Shown: positions 17,811 through 52,477 of the stretch, in pieces
How the letters are laid out: each line of letters starts with the position of its first letter
Numbering within the stretch: the stretch's first letter is position 1
From: Phytopythium helicoides
Lineage: Eukaryota > Oomycota > Peronosporomycetes > Pythiales > Pythiaceae
Direction of reading: 5' to 3'
DNA length: 64,000 bases
Assembly: GCA_024867545.1 (NCBI GenBank)
Contig: JANFNE010000003.1
Coordinates: forward strand, 248,001 to 312,000
Position numbers and translations under genes: made by a program
The notes under the pieces: generated by a model
Told to the model about the DNA's origin: nothing
Databases searched by the model: none
What the model saw: the letters and a program-made list of their open reading frames with translations, nothing else

Positions 17811-20800
17811 TCATTGCAGCTGACTAGCATCCAAGAACTTGTCCAGACGGCGATTCAACTCGTAGTACTTCATTGTTCTAGCTGCGACTGAAATGAGACT
17901 CTCATCTGACGATTCAAGTTTCTTGGTGGCCTCCTGTGCGTCTGCAACCAGGGAGCAAAACCAAGCAGCGCTTTCTGCTTTGCAACTATCTTCAAGCTGT
18001 GAAATAACTCCCTCGATACGATCCCAAAGCTCCTCATACAACGAGAGCTCGAGCCGTGTGCCTTGGACCTGCACCATCGCCTCGCGTGCAGAACATATCG
18101 TGTCCGGAATTGTCTCCAGACTTGCTTTCACTGTAGCGTTACTGGCTTGTTTGTTTGTCAGTCTCGCTAACGCATCAACCACAGTAGAGATCTTGATCCG
18201 TCGAGACGGTACCAATGCACACATTCGCTTCACAAGTTCCCACTCATCGTCTGTAGCGATGGCGGGACGTAGCGGCAGTTGGCCCCGTTTTGCACAAGCT
18301 TTCACGACAACATTGTCGAGATCTCCCCACGGAAGACACAGATGCGTATCCTTGCCAGCATCCACAGCCTCCACAACACGCAGTGCCTCCACGATACACA
18401 TACCCAAAGAGTAGATATCCGACTCGTAAGTTGGACGCGCGCCAGCTTCAAAACATTCTGGAGCCACCCAATGTGATGCGCCGGATATTCCCGCGCTATC
18501 ATGATCACTAGTGAGCGTACTCAAGCCAAAATCCGTCACCTTCGCCTTCATATCACTTCCCACTAGGATGTTGTTCCCCTTCAAGTCACCATGTGCCACG
18601 TTGCGTGCATGAAGATACTGAACACCAAGTGCTGCCTCATGGAGTTTCACCCATAACTCATCTGGATGCTTCTCCAAATAGCTGACCAACGTGCCATTCG
18701 TGGCGTATTCACACACAAAGAATGGATTGCCGACATGACAAGCACCGAAAAGCTGAATGACATGAGGGTGTCTGAACGTGAACCAAATATCGACCTCGCG
18801 TCGGAACATTGCGAGATCATGCGCTTTCGAGGTCGAGTCCGCAGGATTCGTAGTTGCGGTGGAGTCCACCAATGATACAGTAAACGATGAAAGCGCACTA
18901 GAAGTGCCGCTGCTTTCATCGACACCAAGCTTCTTGACCACCACCTCCGAATCCAGCCATCGAGCTCGATACACACTCCCAAACCCACCAGCACCAAGAC
19001 GATCCGCTTCTGCGATAACCAGCTCATACCACGGAATGAACCACTCCGGAATGGATCCTTCTCCTTCGAGCTTGCTCTCGAGAGCTTCAATAGTCTTCTT
19101 CATCACCTCCTTCTGATCTGACGTGTACTTGGAGCCAGGGTTGTTCGTCTCCGCCTTCAACGTCGCGATCAACGCAAGCCGTTCGTGATCGGTCTGCAGC
19201 TCATTGAGGCGAAGATAGAGATCGGACACCCCAGCAACGAAGACATCTTGCTGCTGATCATCCCACTGTTTTCTTCTTTCCCTGGTGTTATCGGTGCTCT
19301 CGCCAAGCGATTGCCACAGCGCCTCCATCCGTCGATGAAATGTGACAATGCTGGTGGAAGTGACTCTCGTGGACGAAAGTCGCATGGCAAGGGTTTGGTC
19401 TTTGGTCATTGAAATCGCCGCGTGAAAGTCGACCAACAGAGAATGAAACTGTGCTAGCAATGATATAGGCTGTGGAGAGTTCAGGAAGCGCTCGTGTAAA
19501 TGTTTGAGATCGGCGAACCCTTGTCGGTGTTGTTCGTTGGTGCACTTCTCCATGAGGTGTACAAGAGACACCCACGTGTCTTGTGCTTGTCCGTATCGAT
19601 AGTTGTCAAACGTGGTGACCGCGTGTTGGTCTTCAGGTTGGCAGTTTTCTGGTTTAGCCAAGTGCTCCATCTCACAGACGACCGCCGACAGGCTCATACG
19701 TTTGACAGGATCCTTGCAGCACATGCGCCACACTAAATTTCGAGCGTGTCCATCTGCGCATTGCGGCTCATATCGTGTTCTTCTGTTGGTCAACTCCAAC
19801 TCTGGTTTCCACTCCAATTTCAAATCTGGGACCTCGATTTCATCTTCAAGTCTCCACGGAACGCTCGCAGTTGCTGCCTCCAGCACGCACATTCCCAGCG
19901 AGTACACGTCAGAACCAAATGATGGTGCTTCGCCTTCCAGAATCTCCTGGTGCCATCCACCGTATCGGACCATCAATTGAAGACCCACCAGTCGTCAAGC
20001 CACTCAGCCCGAAGTTCGACAACTTCGCCAAACCGTCACTCCCAATCAAAATATTGCTGCATCTCAGATCGCCGTGAATAATCTTCCGCTCGTGGAGGTA
20101 CTGAAGACCCAACGCAGCCTCAAGCAACAGCTTCCACATCGTTTGATCTTTATTCGCCATTTTGATTGCGCTGAACATACTCAAACAACGAACCACCACT
20201 TGCGTACTCGCACACGAATAAGTCCAAGCCAGGTACAAGATCAACATTACATGCCCCATAGATTTTGATGATGTTGGGGTGTCGTAACTGTTGCCATAGT
20301 CCAGCTTCGTCTTGAAACGACATATGTGCTGCGTCAGGTACAAAGAGTTTAACCACGACGACGGCATCGAGCCACTTAGCGAGATAGTTGCCACCAGCAT
20401 TGCCACTTTTGAATAGATCATTTAGCTCCAATTCACACGGCGGCACGAAGAGAACTGTTGTGTGAGCCACTTGATGTGCTGGGCTTGTTTGATGGAGTTT
20501 GGTGTACCGAGTGAGATATTGCACCAGTTCATGATCGCCTCGATCTGTGGCGAATCGAATTGCTGAATTTCCTTCGTTGTCGGTGGCATTCACATCTGCA
20601 CCGCATGCTTCTACGAGATACCGAACCACATCCATGTGCCCCTTGATTGTGGCAATCGTCAGAGCAGTGTAGCCTAAATTGGTCTTCGTATTCACGTCTA
20701 CTTCGCATGCTTCGACGAGATACCGAACAACTTCAACGTGGCCTTCACTAGCGGCCCACGTTAGTGCTGTCCATCCACCTTTGCCTGGTTCGTCGATGTC

Positions 20801-21802
20801 CATGGCAAACGCTTCAACGAAATACCGAACGACATCAAGATGACCCTCGCAAGCAGCCCACATCAGCATGGCGTGCCTCTCATTGACCATCGATGTACTG
20901 CATTCCTCAGCAAGATACCGAATCACGTCGAGATGACCGTTTCTTGAAGCCCATGCCAGCATGGTGCATCCATCATCGTCCATCGCATTCACATCCGCAC
21001 CACATTCTTCAACAAGATACCGAACCATGTCAACATGACCCATACGAACGGCCCACATCAGTATGGCGCGTTCCTTCCTGCACACAGCTCTCACTTCTGC
21101 TCCACATTTTTCAACAAAATACTGAATCACATCGATATAACCGTTCCTGGCTGCCGATACTAGCATTGTTGATCCTTCTTCGTCCGTCACATTCACGTCG
21201 GCACTGCATTCTTCTGCGAGGAACCGAACAATTTCAATATAACCCTCACGGGCGGCACATGTCAGCGCTGTCGACCCGTCCTCGTCCACACCATTCACAT
21301 CTACACGCCATTCTTCCGCCAAGTACCGAACCACATCAAAGTGGCCGGTCCTGGCAGCACACATCAATACTGTCGACCCATCTTCGTCCGTAGCATTCAC
21401 ATCCGCACCCCATTCTTCAGCAAGATACCTGACTACATCAGCATGCCCAAACGTAGCACCCAACATCAGCGCTGTGTAGCCCTCGCTGCCCTTCACATTC
21501 ACGTCCGCTCCACAATGCTGAGCAAGATACCGGACCACGTCCAAATGGCCGTTTGATGCCGCCCACATCAGCGCAGTGTACTCGAACATGCCCTTCGAAC
21601 TCACATCCGCGCCACATTCCTCGGCGAGATACCGAACAACGTCAATGCGGCCCTTGCGAGCAGCCCACTCCAACGCAGTAGACCCATCTTCGTCCTCTGC
21701 AAGCACATTCACACCTGCCTGGACCAGTTCCTTGAGTCGCCCAAGACGGCCCTTCTTCGCAACTTGCAAGACTTCCTCCAGCTCCGCTACACCCATCGCC
21801 AT
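17811..21802 (-). pseudogene. ANK-pseudokinase-kinase gene A (two frameshifts)
   Basis: Copy A of the family, about 1,330 codons if read through. ATG at 21802 ('MAMGVAELEEVL'), where the frame first opens with GTG three codons earlier. Order: about 13 ankyrin repeats (21790 to about 20480), TKL pseudokinase K1 (about 20430-19640), helical bundle HB1 (about 19640-19110), kinase K2 (about 19060-18170) and helical bundle HB2 to the stop at 17811. K1 lacks a glycine-rich loop and has 'HGDLRCSN' and 'LSNFGLSG' (Asn for the DFG Asp). K2 is intact: 'LGAGGFGSVY', 'VVVKKL', 'HGDLKGNN', 'VTDFGLS', 'VAPE'. K1 is broken by an apparent 1-base deletion near 20158 and an extra C near 19946; the intact paralogs read straight through at both places. 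Otherwise the frame is clean, so this is either a young pseudogene or an assembly error. Confidence 0.78.
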
Positions 21803-22063
21803 GGTCACCGACTCCTAAGTTGCTCGCAGCGAGCTGCTTCTCGTCTGTCTCCCTGACAAGCGCAGCCAAGGTCATTGATCTTCCCACGTGGCCTCGTACC
21901 CATCCACTCCTCTGCTACCTTTGTCAAAACAATACCTCTTTTTGTTTATCGATACAATTTTGACAAATGATGAGCATTTTCATCTCTATATCTCATAACC
22001 TCTATTTATACATTAAATACTTTGCTTGTCACGAAGGTGAACCCATTGGGGTGTGACGTGTGC

Positions 22064-22820: not shown

Positions 22821-25800
22821 TCACTGCAGCTGAATAGCATCCAAGAACTTGTCCAGACGGCGATTCAGCTCGTAACATCGCATCGCCTTTGTCGGATCAG
22901 ATTTTAGGTCCTGAGGTGTCAGTAACAAGTTCCTGGTTGCCTCATCCGTGTCTGCGACCAATGAGCAGAATCTATCTCGATACTCATGTGAATTACAGCA
23001 GCCATTCTGAGAGTGAACCCACTCTAACCGATCCCAGAGCTTGATGAAGAGCTGACACTCGCAAATTGTGTTAGAAGCATCTCTCAGCATCGAGAATGCT
23101 GATGAGATAACGACTGAAATAGCCTCAAAGCTCAATGTTTTGGCTGAAAAAGTGGGTTGGGAAGGTATCTCGATAATCTGCCTTCCTGCAAAACTTGCAA
23201 GTTTGTCGACGACTGCAGAGATTCTCATTCGTTTCAATGGATTCGACGCACACATCTGACAAATGAGATCCCAATGCTCATTTGTGCAAATTCCTGGTCG
23301 CAGGGGTAATGTACCCCTTTTTGCGAGTGCTCTGACTTCAACATTATCAAGTTTTCCCCATGGGAGACAAAACAATTTATCCTTACCACCATTTGCTGCC
23401 TCCACAACCCGAATTGCTTCCACGATACACATACCCAAAGAGTAGATATCTGACTCGTAAGTTGGACGCGCTCCAGCTTCAAAACATTCTGGAGCCACCC
23501 AATGTGATGCGCCGGATATTCCTGCCCTATCATGATCACTAGTGAGCGTACTCAAGCCAAAATCCGTCACCTTCGCCTTCATATCACTTCCCACTAGGAT
23601 GTTGTTCCCCTTCAAGTCACCATGTGCCACGTTACGCGCATGAAGATACTGAACACCAAGTGCTGCCTCATGGAGTTTCACCCATAACTCATCTGGATGC
23701 TTCTCCAAATAGCTGACCAACGTGCCATTCGTGGCATATTCACAGACGAAGAACGGTTTCCCGACATGACAAGCACCGAAAGAGCTGAATCACGTGGGGA
23801 TATCTGAATGTAAACCAGAGGTCAACTTCGTGTCGGAATGTCATTAAATCTTTCGCCCTCGTTTTCGTGTCTCGTGCGCAACGACTGAAAGGAGCAGAAG
23901 AACTCAACTTCATGGATGTCAGCAGTGACCACTTCGACGTCTTGCTCATTTGTTCGTCCACATCGAGCCTCTTGACCGCCACGTCTGAGTCCAGCCATCG
24001 TCCTCGATACACACACCCAAATCCTCCAGCACCAAGACAATTGAGTTCGTCAACGACTAACTCATACCACGGAATGAACCACTCAGGAATAGAGCTTTCT
24101 CCTTCCAGCTTGCTCTTGATAGCACCGACTGTTTTCTTCATCACCTCCACTTGGTCAGGGTGTGTATTTGGATCGATGGTTTTCAGCTTCTGTGTTCAAT
24201 TTTGTAATCAATGCTTGCCTCTCTTCATCTGACTTTAGTTTGTTCAGATGGAGATATAAATCAGATACTCCTGACATGAAAGCGTCGCGCTGCTGCTCAT
24301 CCCATCGCTGATGTCTTTCTTTAGTATTCTCGATTGTCTCTCCCAGAGATCCCCAAAGAGACTCCATTCGTCGATAAAACGTAACAACGCCAGTGGTAGT
24401 GGCACTCGTTGCCGATAAACGCATGGCTAGGGCTTGGTCAGGGGTCATTGAGATTGCTTTATTGAATTCAGTCAAAAGTATGTGAAATTGTGCCAGCAAA
24501 GTAATAGGATGAGGAGCGTTTCCAATATACTCATGCAATCGTTTGAGATCTTCAAAAGCGTTGCAATATTGATCGTTGCGACACGATTTCATGTGCTTAG
24601 TGATGCTCGACCATGTTTGTTGCACTTGACCATTCCTGTAGGTATCGAGAGTCATCGAAGCAATGTTACATTCATATTTGAATGCTCCTTTCCCAGCCAC
24701 ACGGCCAAGCTCACTCACAATTGACGACAAGCTCATGCGTTTTCTGGGGTCTTTGCAGCACAAGCGCCATACCAATATCTGTGCATCCCCAACGGGACAT
24801 TTTGGGCCATACCAACTTCCTTTGGTGCTCTCAGGTTCCCAAAGCAGTTTGTTGCATCTAGTCCAGATATCGTGATCACTCCACGGAGTCTTTCCAGTTG
24901 TAGCCTCCAGCACGCACATACCTAATGAGTACACATCCGAAGCAAAAGTCTGTGCCTCACCTTTCAGCACTTCAGGCGCTACCCATTGCTTTGGACCAAC
25001 ATTTCCGGAGCCACCCAACCCGAAGTTTGAAAGCTTCGATAATCCATCACTTCCAATTAAGATGTTGCTGCATCTCAAGTCCCCATGAATAATTTTCCGT
25101 TCGTGAAGATACTCAAGCCCTAAAGCTGCCTCATACAAGTGCTTCCATATCCAACGATACTTTTCGTTGTACAGATGGTATAACCACCTCCACGTCATCC
25201 GATCCTCGTCATCTCTGTGGGTAAGCTCCACTAATTGCAATAGGGATCCTCCACTTGCGTACTCATACACAAAGAGCTGCAAGCCGACCACGTCTGAAAC
25301 ATCGCATGCGCCATATAGCTTGATGATATTTGGGTGTCGCAGCTGTTGCCAAGCTCTAATGCTATCCCCAAATGAAGAATGCTTGGAATCCGATACAAAT
25401 CGTTTGACTGCAACATCTGCATCAAGCCACTTAGCGAGATATTCACGACCAAATCCATTGGCATTTTCAAGAAGCTTCATAAATGCCAGTTCCGATGGTG
25501 GAATGAGTAGCATATCGACGGATGCTACTGATAAAGGTTTTATGTCGGTTTCAGGATTTTTTGCAAGCCGGATGAGGAATTGTAGCATTACTTGATCGCC
25601 TCGATTAGCAGCGTATTGTGCTGCTGAGTGTCCATTATTGTTGGTCGCATTCACGTTCGCTCCGCAATCTTCAGCCAGATATCGAACCATATCAAAATGA
25701 CCTCCATGCGCAGCCATCATCAAAACAGTCAATCCTTGCTTATCTTTTGCATTGACATTCGCGTCACATTTGCTCGCAAGAAGCTGAACAATATCAAAGT

Positions 25801-27415
25801 GACCGTTCTCTGCAGTTAACATCAGTGCAGTATATCCGTCCCAATGATTTGTATCTACTTCTGCTCTACAATCTCTGGCAAGATACCGAACGACAGCAAA
25901 GTGGCCTTTCTTAGCAGCCAGCATCAATGCTGAGTGGCCTTCTCGCTTCATATTTACTTCCGCGCCACATTTCCTCACTAGATATCGGACAACATCAATG
26001 CGACCCACGTCAGCAGCTCTCATCAATGCAGTGAATCCACTTTCGCCCTTCACATTGACATCAGCCCCGCATTTTCCAGCGAGATACATGACAACATTGA
26101 AGTGACCATTGTCAGATGCTTTCGTCAGAGCTGTATACGCGTGCTTGTCCTCTGCGTTCAGGTTTGCGCCGCAGTCATGAGCAAGATATCTGACCATTCC
26201 TAAGTGACCGTTCTCGGCTGCCATCATCAGCGGTGTTTTTCCCAGTTCATCCTTTGCATTCACACACCCCGACCATTCTTTAACGATGTTCTGAACCACG
26301 CAAAAGTGGTCTTCATCAGCAGACTTTGTTGGTACAGAGTATCCGGCGCTTGTAATGCATTTTCCAGCAAGATACTTGACCATTTCAAAATGGCTCTTCG
26401 CAACAGCTATCATTAGCGCAGTTTTCCCGTGATCACTCTTCGCATTCACGTCGGCATCACACTCTTGAACAAGACGCCGAACAGCACGGAAACAACCTTT
26501 TTCAGCAGCCCTCATGAGTGCGGTGTATCCACCCTCGCCTTTCATGTTCACGTCTGCGCCGCATCTCCGAGCGAGATACCGAACCACGTGAAAGTGGCCG
26601 TTGTCAGAGGCTCTCGTCAGTGCTGTGAATCCGCTCTTGTCTTCTTCATCCACATTTGCGCCAAAAACACCCGCAAGGTACCTAACCACGTCAGCATGAC
26701 CCTTCTCAGCAGCAATCATCAGCGCTGTGCATCCTTCCGAGTGTATAATGTTCACGTCGGCGCCGCATTCTCCAACAAGGCACTGGACAACACCAAGGCG
26801 GCCCTTTGTTGCAGCGGTCATTAACGCTGTATACCCGTTCTTGCCCTTCGTGTTCACTTTGGCTCCGCATTTTCTAGCGAGATATAGAGCGACACTGAAA
26901 TAACCATTGTCAGAGGCTCTCGTCAGTGCTGTATATCCGTACTTGTCTTTGATATTCACATTCGCGCCGCAAGTATGAGCCAGGAATCGAACAACACCAA
27001 AGTGACCGCTCTCGGCTGCCATCATCAACGCAGTTTTCCCTTCATCATCCTTTGCATTCACGTCTGCGCCGCATTCTCCAACAAGACACCGAACGATGTC
27101 ACACCGCCCCTCCTTCGCAGCGATCATCGCCACCGTGCATCCGTTCTTGTCCTTCGCACTCAAGCCCCCGCATTTTTCTTCGAATTCTCTAGCGAGATCA
27201 TCCGAACACGAGGAGGCAACGAACTCATAAACTCGTCGTATCTGCTTCCTTCTGCTCTTGGGAAACACGCTCCACATCGCTCCACGGCGTCTTGACTTGT
27301 GCGAACTCGCCCTTGAGAACACATTTTGAACCCATTGTACCCATCCATCCATCGATATCAGCCGCACAAATTTTTTAGTCAGTTGTAGCCATGGCGGTCT
27401 CATCACCAATGTCAT
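22821..27415 (-). pseudogene. ANK-pseudokinase-kinase gene B (two frameshifts, 16 ankyrin repeats)
   Basis: The longest family member, about 1,530 codons. First ATG 27415; a second candidate is 27352. About 16 ankyrin repeats follow a basic ~80-residue leader. K1 has 'HGDLRCSN' and 'LSNFGLGG' (no DFG Asp), again without a glycine loop; HB1 follows. K2 has 'LGAGGFGCVY', 'VAVKRL', 'HGDLKGNN', 'VTDFGLS' and 'VAPE', so it looks catalytically competent. The frame breaks near 24160 (one extra base before the K2 linker) and near 23783 ('gaaagagctg' where paralogs have 'gaaaagctg'). Most of B is diverged from A, C and D, but about 23430-23745 is nearly identical to them in DNA. The HB2 tail also differs ('FIKLWDRLEWVHSQ'). 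Confidence 0.78.
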
Positions 27416-27559
27416 GCACGAGAGATCGAGAGCGAGACAACATCGTGGACTACGACAATTACCTCTTGTTTCACCGAGATTCCTACCCTCTGCCCTCTCC
27501 ACTACAGTTATACGGGACTTCCAGTATTTTCTACACTGAGTCCACAGCGTAGACTGGTT

Positions 27560-28340
27560 ACCACATGTGGTGGTGATCCCTCACTACCACGATATTGGAA
27601 TTTTTCTTGACGTCAATGCGTCCTGAACAGCTAGCGCCGAGGCGAAACGCCTGTCGCTTGCTCGCAATGGCCTTCCTCCGTGGGTCCGCACTCCGGTGGG
27701 GGACACCAACTGAATCAACTCGGCACTGTCGATGACTCGGGTGGTTGGCCGTGCTTCGACTGTGATCTGCAACAGTGCAAGTCCTCTCGAGCCACCTGAC
27801 CGCGGAAAAGAGGATAACGCGCGCTTCACATGCTGGTTGTCGCCGCAAAAGCTAGCCGAAAAGGCCGCGTCGAGTTGAGCAGCGTCACTCCCGGTCGTCG
27901 TCGTCGTCGTTGGGGGAATCCAGCTGCTCGGAGAGCCGGGAAATGCGGCCGCTTGGACTGAGAGAAGAAAGGCTGCGCGTCGAGTACCGTGGCTTGCTCA
28001 ACCAGCCAATCGTTCCTCCATAGAAGGGAGCTCTCCATACCGGTCGCATCGAGCCGCTAGGATCGGGAGTAGCGGCATTGCAAATAACTTTAGAGTTTGC
28101 ATTGGGATCCACGACGCGATCATTGAGCTCTCAGCAAGCCTTCTCCGCGTCCAAGAAATCCCAGTCGAGTTTTGTGGTGTCCGTTGAGTCGACGAGACAG
28201 TCCTCATGATGCTCGGCTCCTTGCTGGGCTTCTAGGACTCCTTGTATGGGTAGCGTTCGTATCCCTTCGTATCGTGCTGAGGCTGCATCACTTGCGATCT
28301 GTTTATTTATGTCGGGAAATCCAGCATTCGGAACCAAGAA
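27560..28340 (-). pseudogene. Decayed dispersed gene remnant, copy 1
   Basis: The spacer between kinase genes B and D carries scattered minus-strand fragments ('WRAPFYGGTIGWLSKPRY', 'DSPNDDDDD', 'ALLQITVEARPTTRVIDS'). Related fragments recur at 53050-53960 (minus) and 32500-33480 (plus). Shared DNA includes the stretch ending 'gagagctca' after a diagnostic 'gactcaacggacac' segment. Frames are broken repeatedly and no product could be recognised. It is probably the relic of a multicopy gene or mobile element that travels with this locus. Confidence 0.5.
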
Positions 28341-28567: not shown

Positions 28568-31500
28568 TCACTGCAGCTGAATAGCATCCAAGAACTTGTC
28601 CAGACGGCGATTCAACTCGTAGTACTTCATTGTTCTAGCTGCGACTGAAATGAGACTCTCATCTGACGATTCAAGTTTCTTGGTGGCCTCCTGTGCGTCT
28701 GCAACCAGGGAGCAAAACCAAGCAGCGCTTTCTGCTTTGCAACTATCTTCAAGCTGTGAAATAACTCCCTCGATACGATCCCAAAGCTCCTCATACAACG
28801 AGAGCTCGAGCCGTGTGCCTTGGACCTGCACCATCGCCTTGCGTGCAGAACATATCGTGTCCGAAATTGACTCCAGACTTGCTTTCACTGTAGCGTTACT
28901 GGCTTGCTTGTGTGTCAGTCTCGCTAACGCATCAACCACAGTAGAGATCTTGATCCGTCGAGACGGTACCAATGCACACATTCGCTTCACAAGTTCCCAC
29001 TCATCGTCTGTAGCGATGGCGGGACGTAGCGGCAGTTGGCCCCGTTTTGCACAAGCTTTCACGACAACATTGTCGAGATCTCCCCACGGAAGACACAGAT
29101 GCGTATCCTTGCCAGCATCCACAGCCTCCACAACACGCAGTGCCTCCACGATACACATACCCAAAGAGTAGATATCCGACTCGTAAGTTGGACGCGCGCC
29201 AGCTTCAAAACATTCTGGAGCCACCCAATGTGATGCGCCAGATATTCCCGCGCTATCCACATCATTAATAAGCGAGCTGAGACCAAAGTCCGTCACCTTC
29301 GCCTTCATATCACTTCCCACCACTATGTTGTTCCCCTTCAAGTCACCATGTGCCACGTTGCGTGCATGAAGATACTGAACACCAAGTGCTGCCTCATGGA
29401 GTTTCACCCATAACTCATCTGGATGCTTCTCCAAGTAGCTGACCAACGTGCCATTCGTGGCGTATTCACACACAAAGAATGGATTGCCGACATGACAAGC
29501 ACCAAAGAGCTGAATGACATGAGGGTGTCTGAACGTGAACCAAATATCGACCTCGCGTCGGAACATGGCGAGATCATGCGCTTTCGAGGTCGAGTCCGCA
29601 GGATTCGTAGTTGCGGTGGAGTCCACCAATGATACAGTAAACGACGAAAGCGCACTAGAAGTGCCGCTGCTTTCATCGACACCAAGCTTCTTGACCACCA
29701 CCTCCGAATCCAGCCATCGAGCTCGATACACACTCCCAAACCCACCAGCACCAAGACGATCCGCTTCTGCGATAACCAGCTCATACCACGGAATGAACCA
29801 CTCCGGAATGGATCCTTCTCCTTCGAGCTTGCTCTCGAGAGCTTCAATAGTCTTCTTCATCACCTCCTTCTGATCTGACGTGTACTTGGAGCCAGGGTTG
29901 TTCGTCTCCGCCTTCAACGTCGCGATCAACGCAAGCCGTTCGTGATCGGTCTGCAGCTCATTGAGACGAAGATAGAGATCGGACACCCCAGCAACGAAGA
30001 CATCTTGCTGCTGATCATCCCACTGTTTTCTTCTTTCGTTGGTGTTATCAGGTGCTCTCGCCAAGCGATTGCCACAGCGCCTCCATCCGTCGATGAAATG
30101 TGACAACGCTGGTGGAAGTGACTCTCGTGGACGAAAGTCGCATGGCAAGGGTTTGGTCTTTGGTCATCGAAATCGCTGCGTGAAAGTCGACCAACAGAGA
30201 ATGAAACTGTGCTAGCAATGATATAGGCTGTGGAGAGCTGAGAAAGCGCTCGTGTAATTGTTTGAGATCGCTGAACGCTTGTCGGTGTTGCTCGTTGGTG
30301 CACTTCTCCATGAGGTGTACAAGAGACATCCACGTTTCTTGTGCTTGTCCGTATCGATAGTTGTCAAACGTGGTGAGAGCGTGTTGGTCTTCAGGTTGGC
30401 AGTTTTCTGGTTTAGCCAAGCGCTCCATCTCACAGACGACCGCCGACAGGCTCATACGTTTGACAGGATCCTTGCAGCACATACGCCTCATGATATGTTG
30501 CGCTTTAGGGACAAGGCAAGGAGGCTCACCAAACAAATATTCTTCAAAGTTTGTCTCTGGTTTCCACTTTTTTTTGCAATCACGAGCGGCCAGGTCTAGG
30601 TATCCACCCCACGGAGCTTTCTCAGTTACAGCTTCCAACACACACATACCCAAAGAGTACACATCAGAAGCAAATGACGGTGCTTCGCCTTCCAGAATCT
30701 CTGGTGCCATCCACCGCATCGCACCAACTGTCGAAGACACACCACTCGTCAAACCGCTCAGTCCAAAATTCGACAACTTCGCCAAACCATCACTCCCAAT
30801 CAAGATATTGCTGCATTTTAAATCTCCATGGATAATTTTCCGCTCATGAAGATACTCGAGACCCAATGCTGCCTCATGCAGCAACTTCCACACAACTTGA
30901 CTCTTTTTGTCATGCTGATGGAATAGCACATAGTCCAACAATGACTCTCCACTTGCGTACTCGCACACAAAGAACTGCAAACCGGAGACACGAGTAACAT
31001 CACATGCACCATACATCTTGATCACATTCGGGTGTCGCAACTGCTGCCACACTCGTGCTTCATTCTGAAACGAGGTATGCGCAGCATCCGGAACAAAAAG
31101 TTTAACCGCAACATCTGCATCGAGCCACTTCGCCATGAAATCTCCGCCGACGTTGCCAGTTTCGACGACCTTTGTGAGTGCCAATTCATAAGGTAGAACT
31201 AATAAGAATATCTGTCAGATGAAGAGCTGGATCTGATTGCGGAAGCTTGGTCAATCGTTTAAGAAGTTGGGTCATACCGCGGTCGTCTCGGTCAGCTGCG
31301 TAACGAGTTGCTGAGTTTCCGTGTTTGTCAGTGCCTTCCACGGAAGCACCACAATCTTCAGCGAGATATCGAACCACTTCGATGTGGCCCTTTGCAGCAG
31401 CCTTCATCAGTGCCGTGGATCCTTCATCGTCCTTTTCATTCACGTCCCCGCCACAGTCTTCAGCAAGGTACCGTACAGCTTCAATACGTCCTTCTTCAGC

Positions 31501-32365
31501 GGCTGCCATGAGGGCTGTGGATCCGCGATCACTTTTTGCACACACGTCCGAGCCACACGCTTCAGCGAGGTACCGAATCACGCCAACATACCCTCTCCTA
31601 GCTGCTTTCATGAGAGCTGTCGAGCCATCTCCTTCGATCGAATCTGCATCATTGGTACCCACGTCCACCCCTCTCTCTTCAACGAGATATCGAACTACCT
31701 CGAGATGGCCTCTTTCAGCCGCGTTCATTAGTGCTGTGCACCCGAATATGTCCTTCGCATTTACGTCCGCGCCACATTCACCGGCAAGATACCTGAACAA
31801 CTTCAATGCTACCACGCACAGCAGCAAGTAGCAGCGCTGTTAGCTCACAGTTGTTTCGCGCATTCACATCATCACCGCATGCGTCAGCTAGATACCGCAC
31901 AACGCTGATGTGGCCATTCTCAGCCGCCTGCATGAGAGCCGTTGAGCCATAGATGTTCTTCACGCCCACGTCCGCTCCGCTCTCAGCGAGATACTGCACC
32001 ACAACGGCGTGACCGTTTTCAGCAGCCCACATCAGCGCCGTGAACCCGTCTTCTTCATCTTGTAAATTCACGTCTGCACCACATTCTCCAGCAAGGTACT
32101 GAACAACCTCAATGTGACCATTTTGAGCAGCTTTCATCAATGCTGTCTCTCCATCGTCGTCTCCATCATTTACTTCTGCACCGCATTCCCCAGCGAGAAA
32201 TTGCACTACATCGACTCGACCCTCGCTCGCGGCCCACATGAGTGCTGTGCATCCCTGTTCGTCCTTGGCGTCCATTTCTGCACCTGCCTCGAAGAGCTCC
32301 TTCACCCGAGCAACGTCCCCATCCCTCGCAGCTTCCAAGACGCCTAGACGCTCCTCAACTCCCAT
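28568..32365 (-). pseudogene. ANK-pseudokinase-kinase gene D (three frameshifts)
   Basis: About 1,266 codons from the ATG at 32365 ('MGVEERLGVLEAARDG', matching the start of copy A). About 11 ankyrin repeats, then K1 ('HGDLKCSN', 'LSNFGLSG'), HB1, K2 ('LGAGGFGSVY', 'VVVKKL', 'HGDLKGNN', 'VTDFGLS') and HB2 ending 'LDKFLDAIQLQ'. Apparent single-base insertions sit near 31792 (inside an ankyrin repeat), 31201 (ankyrin-K1 junction) and 30050 (HB1, extra A relative to A and C). From HB1 to the stop the DNA is almost identical to gene A, whereas the ankyrin half is different. K2 has the 'LSSLINDVDS' activation-segment variant shared with C and E rather than the 'LSTLTSDHDS' variant of A and B. Confidence 0.78.
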
Positions 32366-32499
32366 GGCAATGGGATTTCCTACCGTGGGTTGTCGCCTTT
32401 CACTGCCCAGAAGTGGATGATCGATCACTGATCACCCATTTTGGCTCATGCAAAGTAATACCTGTCAAAACCAATTCTCGAGCACCAGGGCACTTCAAC

Positions 32500-34008: not shown

Positions 34009-37000
34009 TCATTGCAGCTGAAGAACATCCAAGAATTTGTCCAGTCGGCGATTCAGCTCATAGCACTTCATTGTCCTGATGGCTATTGGGATGAGTCTCT
34101 CATCCGACGAGGCAAGATTGTTGGTAGCCTCCTTTGCGTCTGCAACCAGGGAGCTGAAAATTGACTGACTGTTGCTCGTGGACTTGTCCTCAAGTAAAAC
34201 AGAAACTGTCTCAATTCGGTCCCAAAGCTCCAAATACATCGGTATCTCTCTTTGGATGTCCAGTCGTTGTGCCACCTCGATGCGCGCCATAGCTATACTG
34301 TCTGGAATAGACTCCATATTCGCTACTACAGTAGTTTTGGCACCATGGCAGTTCGCCAATATTGCAAGCTCATCAACTACAGTCGAGATCTTGATTCACT
34401 GAGACGGTACCAACGCACACATTCGCTTCACAAGTTCCCATTGATCATTTGTGCATTTTTCTGGGCGTGGAGGTGATGTACCCCGTTTTGCGTGGACTTT
34501 CACTGCAACATTGTCGAGATCTCCCCACGGAAGACACAGATGCGTATCCTTGCCAGTCTCCACAGCCTCCACAACACGCAATGCCTCCACAATACACATA
34601 CCCAAAGAATAGATATCTGACTCGTAAGTTGGACGCGCGCCAGCTTCAAAACATTCTGGAGCCACCCAATGTGATGCGCCGGATATTCCCGCGCTATCCA
34701 CACCATTAATAAGCGAGCTGAGACCAAAGTCTGTCACCTTCGCCTTCATATCACTTCCCACCACTATGTTGTTCCCCTTCAAATCACCATGTGCCACGTT
34801 ACGCGCATGAAGATACTGGACGCCAAGTGCTGCTTCATGGAGTTTCACCCATAACTCATCTGGATGCTTCTCCAAGTAGCTGACCAACGTGCCATTGGTG
34901 GCGTATTCACACACGAAGAATGGGTTGCCGACATGACAGGCACCAAAGAGCTGGATGACATGAGGGTGTCTGAACGTGAACCAAATATCGACCTCGCGTC
35001 GGAACATTGCGAGATCATGCGCTTTCGAGGTCGAGTCCGCAGGATTCGTAGTTGCGGTGGAGTCCACCAATGATACAGTAAACGATGAAAGCGCACTAGA
35101 AATGTCGTTGCTTTCATCGACACCAAGCTTCTTGACCACCACCTCCGAATCCAGCCATCGAGCTCGATACACACTCCCAAAACCACCAGCACCAAGACGA
35201 TCCGCTTCTGCGATAACCAGCTCATACCACGGAATGAACCACTCCGGAATGGATCCTTCTCCTTCGAGCTTGCTCTCGAGAGCTTCAATAGTCTTCTTCA
35301 TCACCTCCTTCTGATCTGACGTGTACTTGGAGCCAGGGTTGTTCGTCTCCGCCTTCAACGTCGCGATCAACGCAAGCCGTTCGTGATCGGTCTGCAGCTC
35401 ATTGAGGCGAAGATAGAGATCGGACACCCCAGCAACGAAGACATCTTGCTGCTGATCATCCCACTGTTTTCTTCTTTCGTTGGTGTTATCGGTGCTCTCG
35501 CCAAGCGATTGCCACAGCGCCTCCATCCGTCGATGAAATGTGACAATGCTGGTGGAAGTGACTCTCGTGGACGAAAGTCGCATGGCAAGGGTTTGGTCTT
35601 TGGTCATTGAAATCGCCGCGTGAAAGTCGACCAACAGAGAATGAAACTGTGCTAGCAATGATATAGGCTGTGGAGAGTTCAGGAAGCGCTCGTGTAAATG
35701 TTTGAGATCGGCGAACGCTTGTCGGTGTTGTTCGTTGGTGCACTTCTCCATGAGGTGTACAAGAGACACCCACGTTTCTTGTGCTTGTCCGTATCGATAG
35801 TTGTCAAACGTGGTGACCGCGTGTTGGTCTTCAGGTTGGCAGTTTTCTGGTTTAGCCAGGCGCTCCATCTCACAGACAACCGCCGACAGGCTCATACGTT
35901 TGACAGGATCCTTGCAGCACATGCGCCATACCAAGTCACAAACGTCACCATATTCACATTCTGGCCCGTATCCGATATATTTGGCTGGGGGACACTCTGG
36001 CTCCCACATCTTCTTATATGCTAATGCCCAAAACTCGTCTTCATTACTCCATGGATCACTCCCAGTTGCTGCCTCCAGCACACACATTCCCAACGAGTAC
36101 ACATCAGAAGTAAAAGATGGTTTCTCCCCTTCCAGAATCTCTGGTGCCATCCACCGTTTTGAGCCAATTAACGAAGAAACACCACTCGTTACGCCACTCA
36201 GACCAAAATTCGACAACTTCGCCAAACCGTCACTCCCAATCAAAATATTGCCGCATCTCAGGTCGCCGTGAATAATCTTCCGCTCATGAAGGTACTCGAG
36301 ACATAACGCTTCCTCATGCAAGAATTTCCATATCCCTCGACGATTGAGATCGGACTCATTGCGTCTGATGTAGTCTAGCAATGACCCACCACTTGTATAT
36401 TCGCACACAAAGAAATGGAAACCTGCAATGCGATGGACATCACATGCCCCGTACATCTTGAGAACATTGGGATGTCGCAATTGCTGCCACAAGTGCGCTT
36501 GGTCCTGAAATGAAGTGTGTGCTGCTGCTGAGACAAAGAGCTTAGCCACAACGTCAGTATCGAGCCACTTCGCGAGGTAGTCGTTGGTAGCCGTTTCTAT
36601 GCGCTCTGTTAACGCGACTTCAGTTGGAGGAATGAGCAAAATGTTGGTCGGTGCTGCTTGCAATACTGAATTGTTCTGAGGAAGCACTGCATAACGATGA
36701 AGCAATTTCAGCATTTCTTGGTCGCCTCGATCTGCAGCGCACCGAATTGCTGAGCTGCCATTATTGTTCGTGATATTCACGTCAATGCCACATTTTTCAA
36801 CGAGAAACCGAGCCACGTCAATATTACCGTTTTTAGCGGCTTTTATCAACGCTGTGTCCCCATTACTGTTCTTTGCATTCACGTCCGCGCCGCATTCAGC
36901 CACAAGGTATAATGTAAACTCGAGATAGCCTCGCTCAACAGCACTCATCAGCACTCTGCAGTTTTTTCTTTCCTCTGCAATTACCTCCACGCCGCACTTC

Positions 37001-38060
37001 CCATCGATAAACATTCCAAAATACACATAACCCTTGAACGCAGCCCAAAGCAGCAAAGTAGGGTCATCAGAGCTCACATTCTCTCCGCATTCTAGAATGA
37101 GACGCCGAATACGGTTCACCTGACCATTCGAAGCTGCTTCCATTACCACTGCATACAGTTTCTTGTACCCTCCAGCGAGACAGCGCAAGACATCAGATTG
37201 GCAATATAGAGCGGCAATAGTCATCGCGTTTTCTCCTTTGATGTTTTTCACTGTCACATTTGCACCGCATTCTTCAACCAGAAACTCAACCACACGAGCA
37301 TGTCCTCTTTGGGCCGCCACAATAAGCGCTGTATTCCCGTGGCAGTTTTTCACATCCACCTCTGCATTGAGCTTCCCAGAAAGGAGCCGTACAACGCCGA
37401 TGTGACCCTCGTAAGCGGCCTGAAGTAGTGCAGTAGATTGAAAGCTACCTTTCGCATTTACGTTCGCATTGCATTCACCAGCCAAACACCCGACCACCTC
37501 AATATGACCTTTAAAAGCTGCCACCGTCAACGCTGTGTCTCCATCCTCATCCACAGCGTTCACATCTGCGCCACATTTTGAGCGAGGTAGCGAACTACTT
37601 CAAGATGACCGTTGTAAGCAGCTTGTATTAGCGCAGTGTACCCATAACAGTCCTTCACATTAACGTCTGCATTGAGTTCCCCAGCAAGGTGTCGTACAAC
37701 TTCAGCGTGGCCATTATCGGCCGCCACAATCAAAGCTGTGTCTCCAAAGTTGTCCTTCATGTTCACGTCCACGCGACATTCTCCGGCTAGGTAGCGTACA
37801 GCATTGATACAGCCATCTAGGGCTGCCAATATCAAAGCTGTGCTTCCGTCCCAATCCGTAGCATTCAGATCTGCGCTGCATTCCTCAATGAGGTAGCGAA
37901 CAACTCCAATTTGTCCTTCTTGGGCTGCAACCATCAGCGCCGTGCATCCATTTCCATTCCTAGCTTCCAAGTCCACTCCTCGCTCGATCAACGCCTTGAC
38001 TTGCACTCGGTCACCCTTCCTTGCAGCCTCGAAGACATCGCCTGCCCTCTCCGTCTCCAT
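34009..38060 (-). pseudogene. ANK-pseudokinase-kinase gene C (one frameshift, one stop)
   Basis: About 1,350 codons from the ATG at 38060. About 14 ankyrin repeats, K1 ('HGDLRCGN', 'LSNFGLSG', no glycine loop), HB1, K2 with all catalytic motifs ('LGAGGFGSVY', 'VVVKKL', 'HGDLKGNN', 'VTDFGLS', 'VAPE') and HB2. One base appears missing near 37577 within an ankyrin repeat ('LAQNVAQM' where a 'CGADVN' motif is expected). A TGA at 34396-34398 interrupts 'VPSQ(R)IKIST'; the paralog E has CGG there, so this is an Arg-to-stop change late in K2, and the downstream 117 codons remain clean in the same frame. HB1 and K2 are close to A and D, but HB2 matches E instead ('REIPMYLELWDRIETV'). Confidence 0.78.
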
Positions 38061-38640
38061 CTCCGTCTCCGTCTCCACAGCCTCTATATCCTCGCTTGTC
38101 CCCCCTCAGCAGATCTTCATGTGGACTAAGGCTTTTTATGCACAAATACAATATGGATTTCTATGTATGCTCACGAAATGATAAACCAAGCGGAGATCAT
38201 GATAGTGAAGATGCAATGGAGAGTTGCGTCCTCCTCGACTGCAGGCCTACGTATTAGCCTCGTAAAACCAACCATGACTCATGTTCTTCACTATTGGGTC
38301 ACCCAAGAAGGTCCGCTATCGTGGTCTCTTGAGAATTCGTTTGACTCCACTCCAGAGCGCTTCCCAAAGTAGATGTCATGTGGAGACCTCTCGAGGTGGA
38401 AGAGTTGTTGGGGCTGAGAGTTTTCACAGTGGGTGGACAGGATGTAAGTGCCGTGGAAAAGCACTCTCGATCCGTTCTCAAACCATTTCGGGCAATAATC
38501 AAGGAGATTATTTGAGGGAGAGATTTGCGCTCCACATATAATTGGTGTCAGTCACCATGTCGATATCGGACTTACAACTTAGGTCGCGAAGTCGTGTTTT
38601 CTGCTTTGACTCTTTCAGCGTCTGAACTCCTAACAGATCT
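38061..38640. other. Intergenic between kinase gene C and PSD gene
   Basis: 580 bases. It contains the upstream region of gene C (minus) and the 3' flank of the decarboxylase gene. No coding similarity, RNA gene or tandem repeat was identified, apart from a CTCCGT-rich run that is the 5' end of gene C. Confidence 0.45.
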
Positions 38641-44359: not shown

Positions 44360-44507
44360 AGCTGCGGTCCTAGAATCTTGGCAGTTTGGCGGTTAGCTTA
44401 GAAATACGGAAGTGCTAGTGCTGCTTTAGGTGTTAGATGTTGATCGCATCAAGCAAATGTGCACGAGACACCGACATACAGGCAACACTAATGGAAGATA
44501 TCGTTTT

Positions 44508-46524: not shown

Positions 46525-48122
46525 TCAAACAGACGCCTTGATAATCACGGCGACGATGGCGATGATCACCACGACAGGCAGCGCCTTCAGCAGGCGGAAC
46601 TGGAACCGCGTGAACGGGTACAGCGCGACCTTGAGCAGCCGCAGCTTGCCCGACGTGTACGGCGGGTACCGCGCCGGGATGTCCATCATGCCGTTCTTGT
46701 AGATGACGGTCTTCTTGTGCGAGAAGGCGTCGACGCCGTGGCGGCCGTGGTAGGCGCCCATGCCCGAGTTGCCCACGCCGCCGAACGGCACGTGTGGGTT
46801 CGACAGCTGCATGAGGCAGTCGTTGACCATCATGCTGCCGGCCGACGTCTCGCCCACCACACGCTCCTTGAGAGCGCCGTTGGAGCTGAAGTGGTACAGC
46901 GCGAGCGGCTTCTCGTTGGTCTTGACGAAGTGCAGCGGCATGTCAAAGTCGCCCGCGGGGTAGTAGTAGATGGGAAGCACGGGTCCGAAGATCTCGTCGG
47001 CCATGGCCGCCGACTTGTGGAATGCGTCAAAGTCCGTCTTGAAGTTGAGCACGGTCGGGGCGATGTAGCGCTGCTTCTCGTCCGTCTGTCCGCCCGTGAC
47101 GGCGAACGCCTTGTCCTTCTGCACGATGGCGTCCACGCGCACGAACATGCGTCCGTTGACGATGCGCGCGTAGCTGTCCGACTGCGCGGGGTCGTCTCCG
47201 AACATCTTCTTGATCTCTGCCTTCATCAACTCGACGAGCTTGTCGCCCACGCGCTCGTCCACGAGGATGTAGTCTGGGCGCACGCAGGTCTGTCCCGAGT
47301 TGACGAAGGCGCCCCACGCGAGGCGCTTGGCCGCGAGCGCCAGATCAGCCGAGTGGTCGACGATGGCGGGCGACTTGCCGCCGAGCTCGAGCACCGTGGG
47401 CGTGAGGAACTCTGCGGCTGCGCGCGCGACGATCTTGCCTAGGAAGCTGCCGCCCGTGGCGAGGATGAGGTCGAAGCGCTCGCGGAGCATGGCCTTGGTC
47501 TCCTCCACGCCTCCGTAGACGTATCGCACGTATCTCTTGTCGACGTGCTTGTCGAGCAGCGCCATGAGCGCGTTGTTGGTGTGCATGACCGTGTCCTCTC
47601 CCGGCAGGCGCAGCAGCACGCAGTTGCCTGCGGAAATGGCTGCAATGAGCGGCACGAGCAGCAGCTGCACGGGGTAGTTCCACGTGCCAATGACGCACAC
47701 GACGCCGAGCGGCTCGCGCACAATGTAGGAGAAGTCCTGGGAGGTTGACGAGGTTGCTGGCGCGCAGCTCCGGCTTGGTCCAGTCGCGCAGGTAGTCCAA
47801 GGTGCTCCTGCACCTCGATCTGCGCGAGCCCGAGCTCCATGGCGAAGCTCTCGCCCGGATGCTTGCGCAGGTCGCGCCACATGGCCGCGCTCAGCAGCGC
47901 CTCGCCCTCCGTCAGCACGCGCTGCACCTGCCGCAGCAGCTGCCGCCGCGTCTCCAGCCGCTTCGTCTCGCCAGTCGCGAAGCTCACGCGCAGCGCCGCC
48001 ACGTCCGCCGCCGTGTCCTGCTTGCCCACGTCCGGCACGGCCGCCGAGGTGCTCACCGACCCGTACATGTCGCCTGCAGCAGGATCTGGAATGGACACAT
48101 ACACGGGGGAGGAGGAAGCCAT
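46525..48122 (-). pseudogene. Fatty-aldehyde-type dehydrogenase (ALDH3-like), two frameshifts
   Basis: About 530 codons from the ATG at 48122 ('MASSSPVYVSIPD'). ALDH signatures: 'VCVIGTWNYPVQLLLVPLI', the Rossmann-side 'ATGGSFLGKIVARAA', the general-base motif 'VLELGGKSPAIVD', the catalytic Cys in 'NSGQTCVRPDY', and 'HVPFGGVGNSGMGAYHG'. The C-terminus ends in a hydrophobic anchor ('LPVVVIIAIVAVIIKASV'), as in microsomal ALDH3A2 enzymes that oxidise long-chain aldehydes to acids with NAD. Two apparent single-base insertions near 47800 and 47740 put ~60 bases ('YLRDWTKPELRASNL') in a different frame, which still reads as ALDH. Everything else is clean. Two close lesions could be assembly error. 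Confidence 0.8.
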
Positions 48123-49264
48123 GGAAGTGGTGTGGACTACACCAAGTGGAGAACCAGCGCCTGGAGGACGTAGCGCGGGTGGAGATCGCGGGAGCGCGGA
48201 TGGAGGTCGACGGGCGAGTCGGCGAGTGAGCGGAGGCGCGCGAGGGCCGCGGAGAGAGCGATGGAGCGGCGGAGCGACGCCATGAGCGCGAGGTGGAGCG
48301 GGAAGGCCGAGGATTGCGTTGATGGCGGGGTTTTGGCCAATTGGGGCGCGCAGAGGCGCGATTAACGAATGTTGATTCGGCACAGAGGCGAGTGCCATCA
48401 TCAGAGTGGAACTGTTTACCGAGTTGAAGGTGGAGGGAAGACGTGGGTGTTAAATTGACGTGCACATGATCTGGAGAGTTGCCACTGTTGACCGCAGCCG
48501 AGGAAGCTTAGATTGCTTTCATGAGTAGACAATCCGTCGCGGCGATCGTCCCGATACAATAATGCCTGGGCTTGCTTGAGAACGGGAGAGCCGATGATAT
48601 AGATTTGCCATGGCCGTTGCTTCCTACCCACCTGGCCCTCTGCCCCAACGACAACTCCAGCCCAAATGGTCTCAACATGGCAGAGCTATAGAATATTGGT
48701 AATCAGTATCCGATGTCGTCATGCCGTTCATCTTGGTTGATTGCTTTAGAATGAAATAGTATTTTTAGATGTGAGATCTGGCGGACATTCGCTTTTTTCT
48801 TCTTCTTCATGGACACCCTGGAATCCAAGCTCATCAGCACAGTGGTAAATCTAAGCAGCATGATTGCTTGGTGTTGAATAGATCGGACGCGTCGTTAATT
48901 ATCTGATAGCACTTCTCGTACTGCGCGTCAGGATCCAACAGACCAAGAGAGGCTCCTGTATGGTGATTCGAGTTAAAGTGCACGTGCAATCAACGAAAGG
49001 ATGGAAACAATCGCTGCCACTACGATACCGAAGCAGCAGCCGCTAGCGATGGTTAACGAAATCCCGCTGGACTGGAGATCAGAATGTACTCTCACTCAAA
49101 ACGTATTTTCTACATGAAGGCGCAGTGGGAGTCCGCATGATGAGGAGACACAAGGTTATGTTTCGTATGTTAGAGTTTTCATACAAGTTATGAAATATGT
49201 ATGATAATTATTTTAAAAGGTACTTGATTTATAGATATCTAGCCAATGCTGATGGAAGAGGGCG
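48123..49264. other. Intergenic between ALDH and kinase gene E
   Basis: 1.14 kb between two divergently transcribed genes. The ALDH-proximal 300 bases are GC-rich; the rest is AT-richer, with a T-rich CTT stretch near 48790. No RNA gene, ankyrin or ABC similarity was seen. Confidence 0.45.
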
Positions 49265-52200
49265 ATGGGGAGTGAGCTGAGCAAGGATGTCAACGCCACC
49301 ACCGATATGAAGAGGAAGGAGGGTCTGAGAGAAGCCTGCACGGACGCGAGTGCCGATGGTGAGAGGAGGTGGAGACCGCTGTTGAGTGCCGCTTACAGAG
49401 GTAGCATTAGTCTCGTTCGGCGCCTTGTCGAAGAATGCGGGGCAGACGTCAACGCTACGAGCAATGCTGGGTGGACTCCACTTATGGTAGCTGCCCAGGA
49501 AGGTCACATCGACATAGTTCGGTGTCTCGTTGAAGAATTTGGCGCAAACGTACATATGGAAACCGACGACAGGTCGACAGCGTTCATGGTGGCTTCTGTC
49601 AACGAGCGCATTGAGGTGGTTTTATACCTCGCCACGGGATGCGGTGTGGACGTGAATTTGAAGGTCAAGGAGGGATACACAGCGTTGATGTGGGCCGCTG
49701 GCAACGGCCATATTGATATTGCTCGGTGTCTCGTTGAAAAATGCGGTGCGGATGTGAGTGTCACCGACAGCGATGGAAATTCTGCAATTCGGTGCGCAGC
49801 TGATCGGGGCGACCATGATATGCTGCAACTTCTTACGCGGTACACAAGGCTACCTCAATTTGATTTACCACTCGAATTGCATTCCGCCGATGTTTTGTTC
49901 ATTCCACCGTCTGAGCTGGCACTCGTACAAGTTGTCGAAAATGGCGACATAGGTGGAGAATATCTTGGAAGGTGGCTCGATGCCGACGTCGCCGTCAAAC
50001 TCTTTGTCCCGGATGCAGCTTATTCCATGTTTCACGAAGAAGCTCTTCTGTGGCAACGACTGAGGCATCCAAATATTATCAAAATGTATGGCGCGTGCGA
50101 TGTTCTGCGTATCCCTGGCGTACGATTCTTTGTCTGCGAGCTCGCAACTGGTGGGTCGTTATTAGAGTTTGTCAAAGGCAATTCGAGTGCCGGTATCGAC
50201 CGGTCAATATGGGGGTACTTGTATGAGGCAGCCCTAGGTCTCAAGTATCTTCATGAGCGAAAGATTATTCACAGAGACTTGAGATGCAGCAATATTTTAA
50301 TTGGGAGCGACGGATTGTCGAAGTTGTCAAATGTTGGTCTCAGTGGTTTGAAAACTGCTTCTTCGGTAGTTGGAGCAGTGCGATGGATGGCACCAGAATT
50401 ACTCGAAGGGGACGCAGCATCTTTTTCGTCGGATGTGTACTCGTTGGGAATGTGTATGCTAGAAGCTAAAACAAGAAAAGTTCCGTGGAGTGGTTATAGA
50501 GAAAATCAGGTTCGTCGACACAAAACCCTCTGGCAGCCTGAATCGCGCTTGGACAGCAACATTTTCTATCAACCGGGGAATCTGTCCGGGGATGCTCGAG
50601 AGTTGGTGTGGCGGATGTGCTGCAAGGTTCCTAACAAACGGATTGGTCTGCGATCAGTCGTGTTGGAGCTCGAACGGTTCGCGATGAGCTCTCAACCCGA
50701 ATCTGAGCCTATCACCATCAGATTTGACAGCTACATGAATGGTCAAACTCAACATATATGGACTGAAGTTGCCAAACACATGCAGAATTGCATTAACGAG
50801 TTATATTGCCACTCATTTGAGGACCTCAAGGAGCTGTACGAACGTTTTGCTTACTCACCTCTTTCCATTTGTCTAGTTGCCGAGTTTTATGCTATCTTGT
50901 TAGAGTTTCACACAGTGATCTCGATGACTCACAACCATTCATCCAGCGTTTTCACATTTCAACGACGAATAGAGACACTCCGGCGGTCTCTTGGTATGAC
51001 TCTAGATATTTCTGAAGAAAGACAACGTCGATGGGATGAGCTCGAGCGCGTTGCTATTATGTCTGGAGTGTCTGACATGAACCTTCGTCTGAAAAAGCTG
51101 GAGCTTGACTCAGAAAGGTTTGCATTGATCACGTCATTAGCAATGGAGGCTGAGACTCAAGGCTCCCAGGACACAACTGGTCAACTAGATGTGGTAACTA
51201 TCGAAACTGTGAAGAGCACGCTCCAAGGAGAACACTCGGATCCGAAGTGGTTTATTCCTTGGTACGAGTTAATTGTTGACGAGTTTACCCGTGTTGGTGC
51301 TGGAGGCTTCGGGAGTGTGTATCGAGCAAAGTGGTTGGATTCAGATGTGGTAGTCAAAAAGCTTGGTGGGAATATTCACGGAAGCACTAGCTCAATGGCG
51401 TCTTAGACGACCTGGTTGCTCAACTCAAGCGTTGCTAAAAATTACGGAGTTCAGACAGCGAGAGCACACGAGTTCACAATGTTCCGACGCGAGGTCGATA
51501 TTCGGTTCACGTTCAGACACCCTCATGTTATTCAGCTTTTCGGTGCTTGTCATGTCGGCAACCCATTCTTTGTGTGTGAATACGCCACGAATGGCACGTG
51601 GGTCAGCTATTTGGAGAAGCATCCAGATTAGTTATGGGTGAAACTCCATGAGGCAGCACTTGGTGTTCAGTATCTGCATGCGCGCAACGTGGCACATGGT
51701 GACTTGAAGGGGAACAACATAGTGGTGGGAAGTGATATGAAGGCGAAGGTGACGGACTTTGGTCTCAGCTCGCTTATTAATGATGTGGATAGCGCGGGAA
51801 TATCCGGTGCATCACATTGGGTAGCTTCAGAATGTTTTGAAGCTGGCGCGCGTCCAACTTACGAGTCGGATATCTACTCTTTGGGTATGTGTATCGTGGA
51901 GACACTGCGTGTTGTGGAGGCTGTGGATGCTGGCAAGGATACGCATCTGTGTCTTCCGTGGAGAAATCTCGACAATGTTGCAGTGACAGTCCACGCAAAA
52001 CGGGGTACATTACCTCCACGCCCAGAAAAATGCACAAATGATCAATGGGAACTTGTGAAGCGAATGTGTGTGTTGGTACCGTCTCAGCGGATCAAGATCT
52101 CCACTGTGGTTGATGAGCTTGCAATATTGGCGAACTGCCATGGTGCCAAAACTACTTTAGTAGCGAATTTGGAGTCTATTCCAGACAGTATAGCTATGGC

Positions 52201-52477
52201 GCGCATCGAGGTGTCACAACGACTGGACATCCAAAGAGAGATACCGATGTATTTGGAGCTTTGGGACCGAATTGAGACCGTTTCGTTTTTACTTGAGGAC
52301 AAGTCCACGAGCAACAGTCAGTCAATTTTCAGCTCCCTGGTTGCAGACGCAAAGGAGGCTACCAAGAATCTTGAATCGTCGGATGAGAGACTCATCCCAA
52401 TAGCCATCAGGACAATGAAGTGCTATGAGCTGAATCGCCGACTGGACAAATTCTTGGATGCTCTTCAGCTGCAATGA
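49265..52477 (+). pseudogene. ANK-pseudokinase-kinase gene E (frameshift plus stop)
   Basis: The shortest copy, about 1,071 codons, ATG 49265. It starts 'MGSELSKD', which fits an N-myristoylation signal (Gly2, Ser6, Lys7). About five ankyrin repeats. K1 differs from its relatives in having a regular 'HRDLRCSN' loop but 'LSNVGLSG' in place of DFG, so the metal-binding Asp is still lost. HB1 and the start of K2 ('VGAGGFGSVY', 'VVVKKL') are diverged. The frame is lost between about 51370 and 51470, and from 51470 on the DNA is nearly identical to genes A, C and D. A TAG at 51629-51631 replaces the Glu codon in 'EKHPDELW'. Downstream, K2 ('HGDLKGNN', 'VTDFGLS') and HB2 are clean, with 'VASE' instead of 'VAPE'. 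The junction looks like a conversion tract. Confidence 0.78.

Follow-up and report, generated by a model that had tools for sequence, protein, structure and literature searches.

In Janus kinases a pseudokinase stands before the active kinase, with FERM and SH2-like domains in front, and in RNase L an ankyrin array is followed by a pseudokinase and then by an RNase domain. Plant proteins of the WTK1/Yr15 family carry a kinase and a pseudokinase in one chain and have themselves been compared with Janus kinases, according to the available part of that report (PMC6170490). Among fungal NOD-like receptors (NLRs) with ANK, WD or TPR repeats, the repeats are described, in the sections at hand, as highly alike within a gene, as variable at sites in the inner helix or loop, and as exchanged within and between members of a family (PMC4986451, PMC2873952). 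For the oomycetes, the accessible portions of an account of the Phytophthora infestans kinases (PMC3019232) list a TKL kinase with 15 ankyrin repeats before the kinase (PITG_06288) and the dual-kinase proteins PITG_04344, 05862 and 07317, and report ankyrin repeats in 3 kinases only.

The window, a stretch of 64,000 nucleotides from the oomycete Phytopythium helicoides at G000:C24:248001-312000, holds five copies (A to E) of a gene whose stop-to-stop frames read, in order, ankyrin (ANK) repeats, a first kinase domain (K1), a linker, a second kinase domain (K2) and a C-terminal stretch. A first-pass annotation had already proposed five copies with this order at these places, and the frames, the Pfam matches (ankyrin and protein-kinase matches in the 10 window pieces searched) and the existence of a family of at least 62 rows bear it out. 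The copies and their neighbours lie as follows, with domain limits of the copies approximate:

14259-15555, minus strand: frames that we take to be kinesin motor-like and that overlap in different frames (an intron or a break)
17811..21814, minus strand: copy A, placed by tblastn with L011, an open member about 18 kb beyond the window; ankyrin ~21800-20470, K1 ~20456-19643, linker ~19643-19040, K2 ~19040-18128, C-terminal stretch to 17811
22821..27580, minus strand: copy B; ankyrin ~27180-25490, K1 ~25486-24685, K2 ~24081-23148, C-terminal stretch to 22821
28568..32431, minus strand: copy D; ankyrin ~32365-31225, K1 ~31205-30404, linker to 29800, K2 ~29800-28888, C-terminal stretch to 28568
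34009..38105, minus strand: copy C; ankyrin ~38060-36640, K1 ~36633-35850, linker to 35250, K2 ~35250-34336, C-terminal stretch to 34009
40336-44392, minus strand: presumably, from its translation, an ABC transporter of PDR type
45803-46387, plus strand: a frame that we take to resemble translation initiation factor eIF3 subunit J
46525-48507, minus strand: an aldehyde dehydrogenase frame, with relatives at 85, 84 and 74% and Phytophthora kernoviae at 67%
49253..52477, plus strand: copy E; ankyrin ~49340-49890, K1 ~49892-50678, linker to ~51233, K2 ~51233-52150, C-terminal stretch to 52477
51632..52477, plus strand: open 3' piece of copy E (part of K2 and the C-terminus), one part of a mosaic seen in dS and in DNA-level matches

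In translation, K1 of copies A, B, C and D reads HGDL(R/K)xxN in the catalytic loop and S-N-F-G at the DFG site, with N in place of the DFG aspartate; K1 of copy E reads HRDLRxxN and S-N-V-G, and the glycine loop of the window K1s is degraded. The proposal that the first kinase looks catalytically dead agrees with these readings. Its statement that the second carries all catalytic motifs fits K2 of A to D, where glycine loop, Lys and Glu are present along with HGDLKGNN, DFG and APE; E has the same motifs with ASE for APE.

The same layout is widespread in this genome. A K1-K2 query taken from copy C and stopping within K2 was run against the 49 Mb assembly and returned at least 62 rows, 5 of them inside the window (copy B not among them). 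Two rows on contig C19 report the same 1261-aa frame and were counted as one place. At 53 of the 56 listed places outside the window, K1 and most of K2 lie in one open frame with no stop, the exceptions being C14:974853 (2 stops) and C8:44850 and C20:132934 (K1 partial), and frames of family members reach 4032 aa. Given so many rows, and so many open places, the domain order is not a product of chance. Protein searches returned 1677 and 449 relatives, 120 of each set being listed; organism names among the matches listed include Phytophthora, Nothophytophthora, Globisporangium and Pythium oligandrum, and depositors' names are of the kind Tkl protein kinase. Two proteins of Nothophytophthora (P0300, P0303) have armadillo repeats after two kinase domains, and in one of Globisporangium (P0273) a formin domain is joined to two kinase domains. 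A pair of kinase domains within a single oomycete protein is seen here in window copies, genome members and listed relatives alike, the Pfam kinase matches being to PF07714 and PF00069, and the comparison supports one chain of ankyrin repeats, a degenerate K1 and an intact K2 that recurs throughout the genome and elsewhere among the oomycetes.

The family offers concrete genes that show several features which a sensing system would be expected to have: many copies, arrays for binding that vary, paralogs of mosaic make-up, a pseudokinase that is conserved and a kinase of non-RD type. The best reading, to which we would give about an even chance, is that of an expanded oomycete repertoire of intracellular sensor kinases. 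The ankyrin array would bind a partner or a protein of foreign origin, K2 would be restrained or switched allosterically by K1 together with the helical parts and would signal through phosphorylation, and the repertoire would be renewed by duplication, conversion and pseudogenisation.

A serious alternative, although we place it below even, is that these are ordinary cytoplasmic signalling kinases of development or the spore stages, expanded by tandem duplication and without non-self sensing, whose arrays bind internal partners and vary through relaxed constraint and slippage. It is in keeping with the P. infestans account, whose accessible sections give TKL genes as the commonest clustered kinase genes and more than two thirds of the kinases as under transcriptional regulation during the life cycle (PMC3019232), and with an overall ankyrin dN/dS below 1. 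The location of the variation speaks against it. The repeats are mostly 34 residues long. A pattern picked out 119 units in 25 proteins; two longer upstream stretches bring the number to 232, of which 149 are distinct as DNA. Entropy peaks at position 16 (3.3 bits), 13 (2.9) and 30 (2.4). In an AlphaFold2 model of an open relative, P0001 (mean pLDDT 84.9, pTM 0.84), the first helix of each repeat contains positions 13 and 16, and position 30 comes just after its second helix; variation is concentrated at a pair of sites in the first helix and a third close to where the second ends. Over 87 nearest pairs, and at positions picked from the same data, pN at 13, 16 and 30 was 1.35 times the overall pS (bootstrap 1.03-1.76) but dN/dS against their own pS was 0.91, with 0.51 at the other repeat positions; pN/pS at 13 and 16, chosen afterwards, was 1.20-1.29 on non-independent pairs (1.20 and 1.27 at identity thresholds of 85% and 75%). 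For the ankyrin part as a whole, where repeats in unequal arrays were perhaps aligned out of register, dN/dS was 0.26-0.84 among the 40 pairs with the closest K2s, 37 of which reached 0.50 or more. The largest array, in L039 (G000:C30:389500-397700), has 69 matched units in one stretch; L039 comprises 2691 open codons upstream of L016, in a whole frame of 4032 aa.

Further difficulties for the view of ordinary kinases are an ankyrin part that two contigs have in common and a K2 of non-RD type. L020 and L022, on different contigs, have in common an ankyrin part that is 97.6% identical over 1061 nt, yet their K1 dS is 0.32. L025 and L027, which lie in tandem, agree at 97-100% over some 2.5 kb up to mid-linker and at 72-100% thereafter, and copy E is itself a mosaic, the first 152 codons of its open 3' piece (K2) lying at dS 0.13 from C and its 5' piece at dS 1.63. 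In a run test for mosaics, 4 of 300 pairs went beyond all 300 shuffles, and K2 dS was lower than K1 dS in 167 of 193 pairs, these pairs being non-independent. Copies A and B are 93.9% identical over 653 bp of 3' end and flank and 71.8% over 1.9 kb of the genes. Such mosaics are a sign of exchange among paralogs, which we infer took the form of conversion or unequal exchange. As for K2, the last kinase is non-RD, without the HRD arginine, in 184 of 186 cases, whereas the catalytic-loop motif was found in 7 of 8 control kinase loci and reads HRD in all of them, a small control since two of its loci, L004 and L006, overlap and two others, L001 and L002, share one motif.

Internal homogenisation was scored as at least 85% self-match over 102 residues, which approximates the criterion of at least 100 residues in the available text of PMC4986451. 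Eight of the 27 own-genome ankyrin stretches show it, or 6 of 25 genes, since L039 and L016 belong to one gene and L040 and L013 to another; it was found in 0 of 74 listed proteins from elsewhere, in which short-read assemblies may collapse repeats. The variable and homogenised repeats, the mosaic paralogs and the non-RD K2 lend indirect support to a receptor or self/non-self role, as the first-pass annotation had suggested. We would go only tentatively as far as an oomycete class of non-self or allorecognition receptors, a rather unlikely extension in our estimate, with a pseudokinase-kinase pair in place of the NOD ATPase that NLRs of fungi and plants employ; recognition would fall to ankyrin arrays that are hypervariable and evolve in concert, the pseudokinase would switch and the non-RD kinase would signal, with dozens of paralogs reshuffled via gene conversion.

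The window copies themselves are damaged, and none of the five has an open frame through the whole gene. Copy A has 2 frame changes, both within K1, copy B has 2 (at the linker end and in K2) and copy D has 3; in copy C the ankyrin part carries 1 frame change and the K2 C-lobe 1 stop, and copy E has 2 in-frame stops, both in K2. Constraint lasted until recently, because dN/dS between window pieces is 0.20-0.35 (12 window-vs-window comparisons computable, 1 not), and the copies are probably recent pseudogenes, a local set of recently broken members. That they are intact, with breaks that are assembly errors, would agree with this low dN/dS and with the neighbouring transporter locus, which is likewise split, over three overlapping frames, and so is probably also broken or misassembled. 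We nevertheless hold it to be improbable, given the in-frame stops in C and E and the open frames, up to the full length noted above, of nearly all listed relatives in the same assembly.

The dead first and live second kinase can be followed well beyond the window. The domain search yielded kinase domains in 145 proteins, of which 25 are open members from this genome and 120 are listed others. When 108 K1-like domains were chosen as matching K1 better than K2, 107 of them, among the matches listed, were without the HxD or DFG aspartate (74 DFG only, 13 HxD only, 20 both), the exception being P0023. Scoring without this choice covered 115 proteins with at least two scorable kinases (25 own, 90 listed others), leaving out 28 single-domain proteins and 2 with no domain long enough. 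The first kinase lacks an essential aspartate in 105 of them (25/25 own, 80/90 listed others), and the last has both in 109 (24/25 own, 85/90 listed others). Twelve further own-genome loci have 10 full K1s (7 without the HxD and 3 without the DFG aspartate) and 2 truncated ones, with K2 intact in 12/12. The first-pass annotation had raised the prospect of both domains being equally catalytic in intact orthologs; as far as residues tell, this is not so in the present genome, in which the HxD or DFG aspartate is missing in 35/35 scored K1s. Elsewhere the answer is mixed, for 10 of the 90 listed two-kinase proteins keep both first-kinase aspartates, namely P0023 and nine in which the first kinase matches K2 better (P0046, P0053, P0060, P0070, P0079, P0082, P0090, P0109 and P0116). 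Three of these, P0070, P0079 and P0082, lost an aspartate in the last kinase, so the reverse order, live then dead, exists as well. A more distant set, P0241-P0310, consists of the new proteins of the second listed search, 32 of 70 with a Globisporangium name; in the 61 with at least two scorable domains the penultimate kinase is degenerate in 61/61 and the last has both aspartates in 58/61, motif columns in such distant domains being dependent on the alignment.

Lys, Glu, Asp, Asn and Asp of K2 are kept in 24 of 25 own members and 79 of 88 listed others, gaps not being counted as faults. The own-genome member that fails is L032 (G000:C32:4022-9220), whose K2 is degenerate (N171S, D184E, DFG to EFS). 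In a quick tree, 118 K1-like domains were split from five K2s at SH-aLRT 100, and 22 changes of aspartate state across them suggest that in this further pseudokinase-kinase case the catalytic residues were lost via differing routes. Mutual exclusion of the two aspartate losses was not significant on independent pairs allowing for relatedness (median p 1). Median dN/dS is 0.26 for K1 (183 pairs), 0.28 for K2 (214), 0.36 for the linker (191) and 0.38 for the C-terminus (218). Judged from sequence, K1 is a maintained pseudokinase under purifying selection like K2, and it may still bind nucleotide or keep residual activity. That it is an unorthodox active kinase, and the protein a dual kinase rather than a pseudokinase-kinase pair, is very improbable: K1-like domains do retain the ATP lysine (25/25 own, 72/83 listed others), the alpha-C glutamate (25/25, 73/83) and at least one aspartate (98/118), with both in 10 of 115 first kinases, but at least one of the two essential aspartates is missing in 117/118, the glycine loop is degraded, and lysine and glutamate are lost too in many distant first kinases.

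Between and after the kinases the first-pass annotation had placed helical bundles; the linker and C-terminus are indeed predicted to be helical, on the open relative P0001 and not on the window copies themselves. Family searches gave no clear match of the linker to any known family. A crude hydropathy scan of own-genome frames gave no 19-residue window above 1.6 in 28 of 30.

Set beside known systems, the family consists of oomycete kinases, as do the dual-kinase proteins of P. infestans and the Oomycete Subfamily 1 TKLs, and in the accessible sections of that account ankyrin-pseudokinase-kinase proteins are not described as one family (PMC3019232). It is like Janus kinases in that its motifs place a pseudokinase on the N-terminal side of an active kinase; among the PDB sequence matches of L011's K1 the top two are chains of JAK1 and TYK2, and the best of K2 are EGFR-KDD, TYK2, CTR1, then B-Raf and others. 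The JAK likeness drawn in the first pass stands for this order and does not extend to membership, there being no FERM or SH2 Pfam match in 10 window pieces (E 0.01) or five relatives (1e-5), and the family differs in its ankyrin front end, its linker of about 200 residues and its non-RD K2. With RNase L, whose chains take ranks 2-12 when the P0001 model is compared by Foldseek, it shares an ankyrin array ahead of a pseudokinase, after which comes a second kinase and not a C-terminal RNase domain; with query-normalised TM-scores of 0.17-0.18, the two have only the domain order in common.

The family is also like plant tandem kinases (TKP/WTK) in that a single chain bears two kinase-type domains of which one is degenerate; unlike the kinase-pseudokinase WTK1/Yr15, as described in the available text (PMC6170490), it is mostly pseudokinase first, has an ankyrin front end and is found in oomycetes. 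Membership of the NOD-like receptors was looked for in the same Pfam searches, and there was no NACHT or NB-ARC match (10 window pieces, E 0.01; five relatives, 1e-5); a kinase pair stands in place of the NOD. The ankyrin repeats are nevertheless like those of fungal NLRs, so far as the sections at hand describe them, in within-gene homogenisation, location of the variable sites and exchange between paralogs (PMC4986451), and the variable arrays, mosaics and non-RD K2 resemble the features by which fungal NOD-like receptors diversify. The layout as a whole, an ankyrin array with a dead kinase and a live one, resembles that of immune sensors found in animals, plants and fungi.
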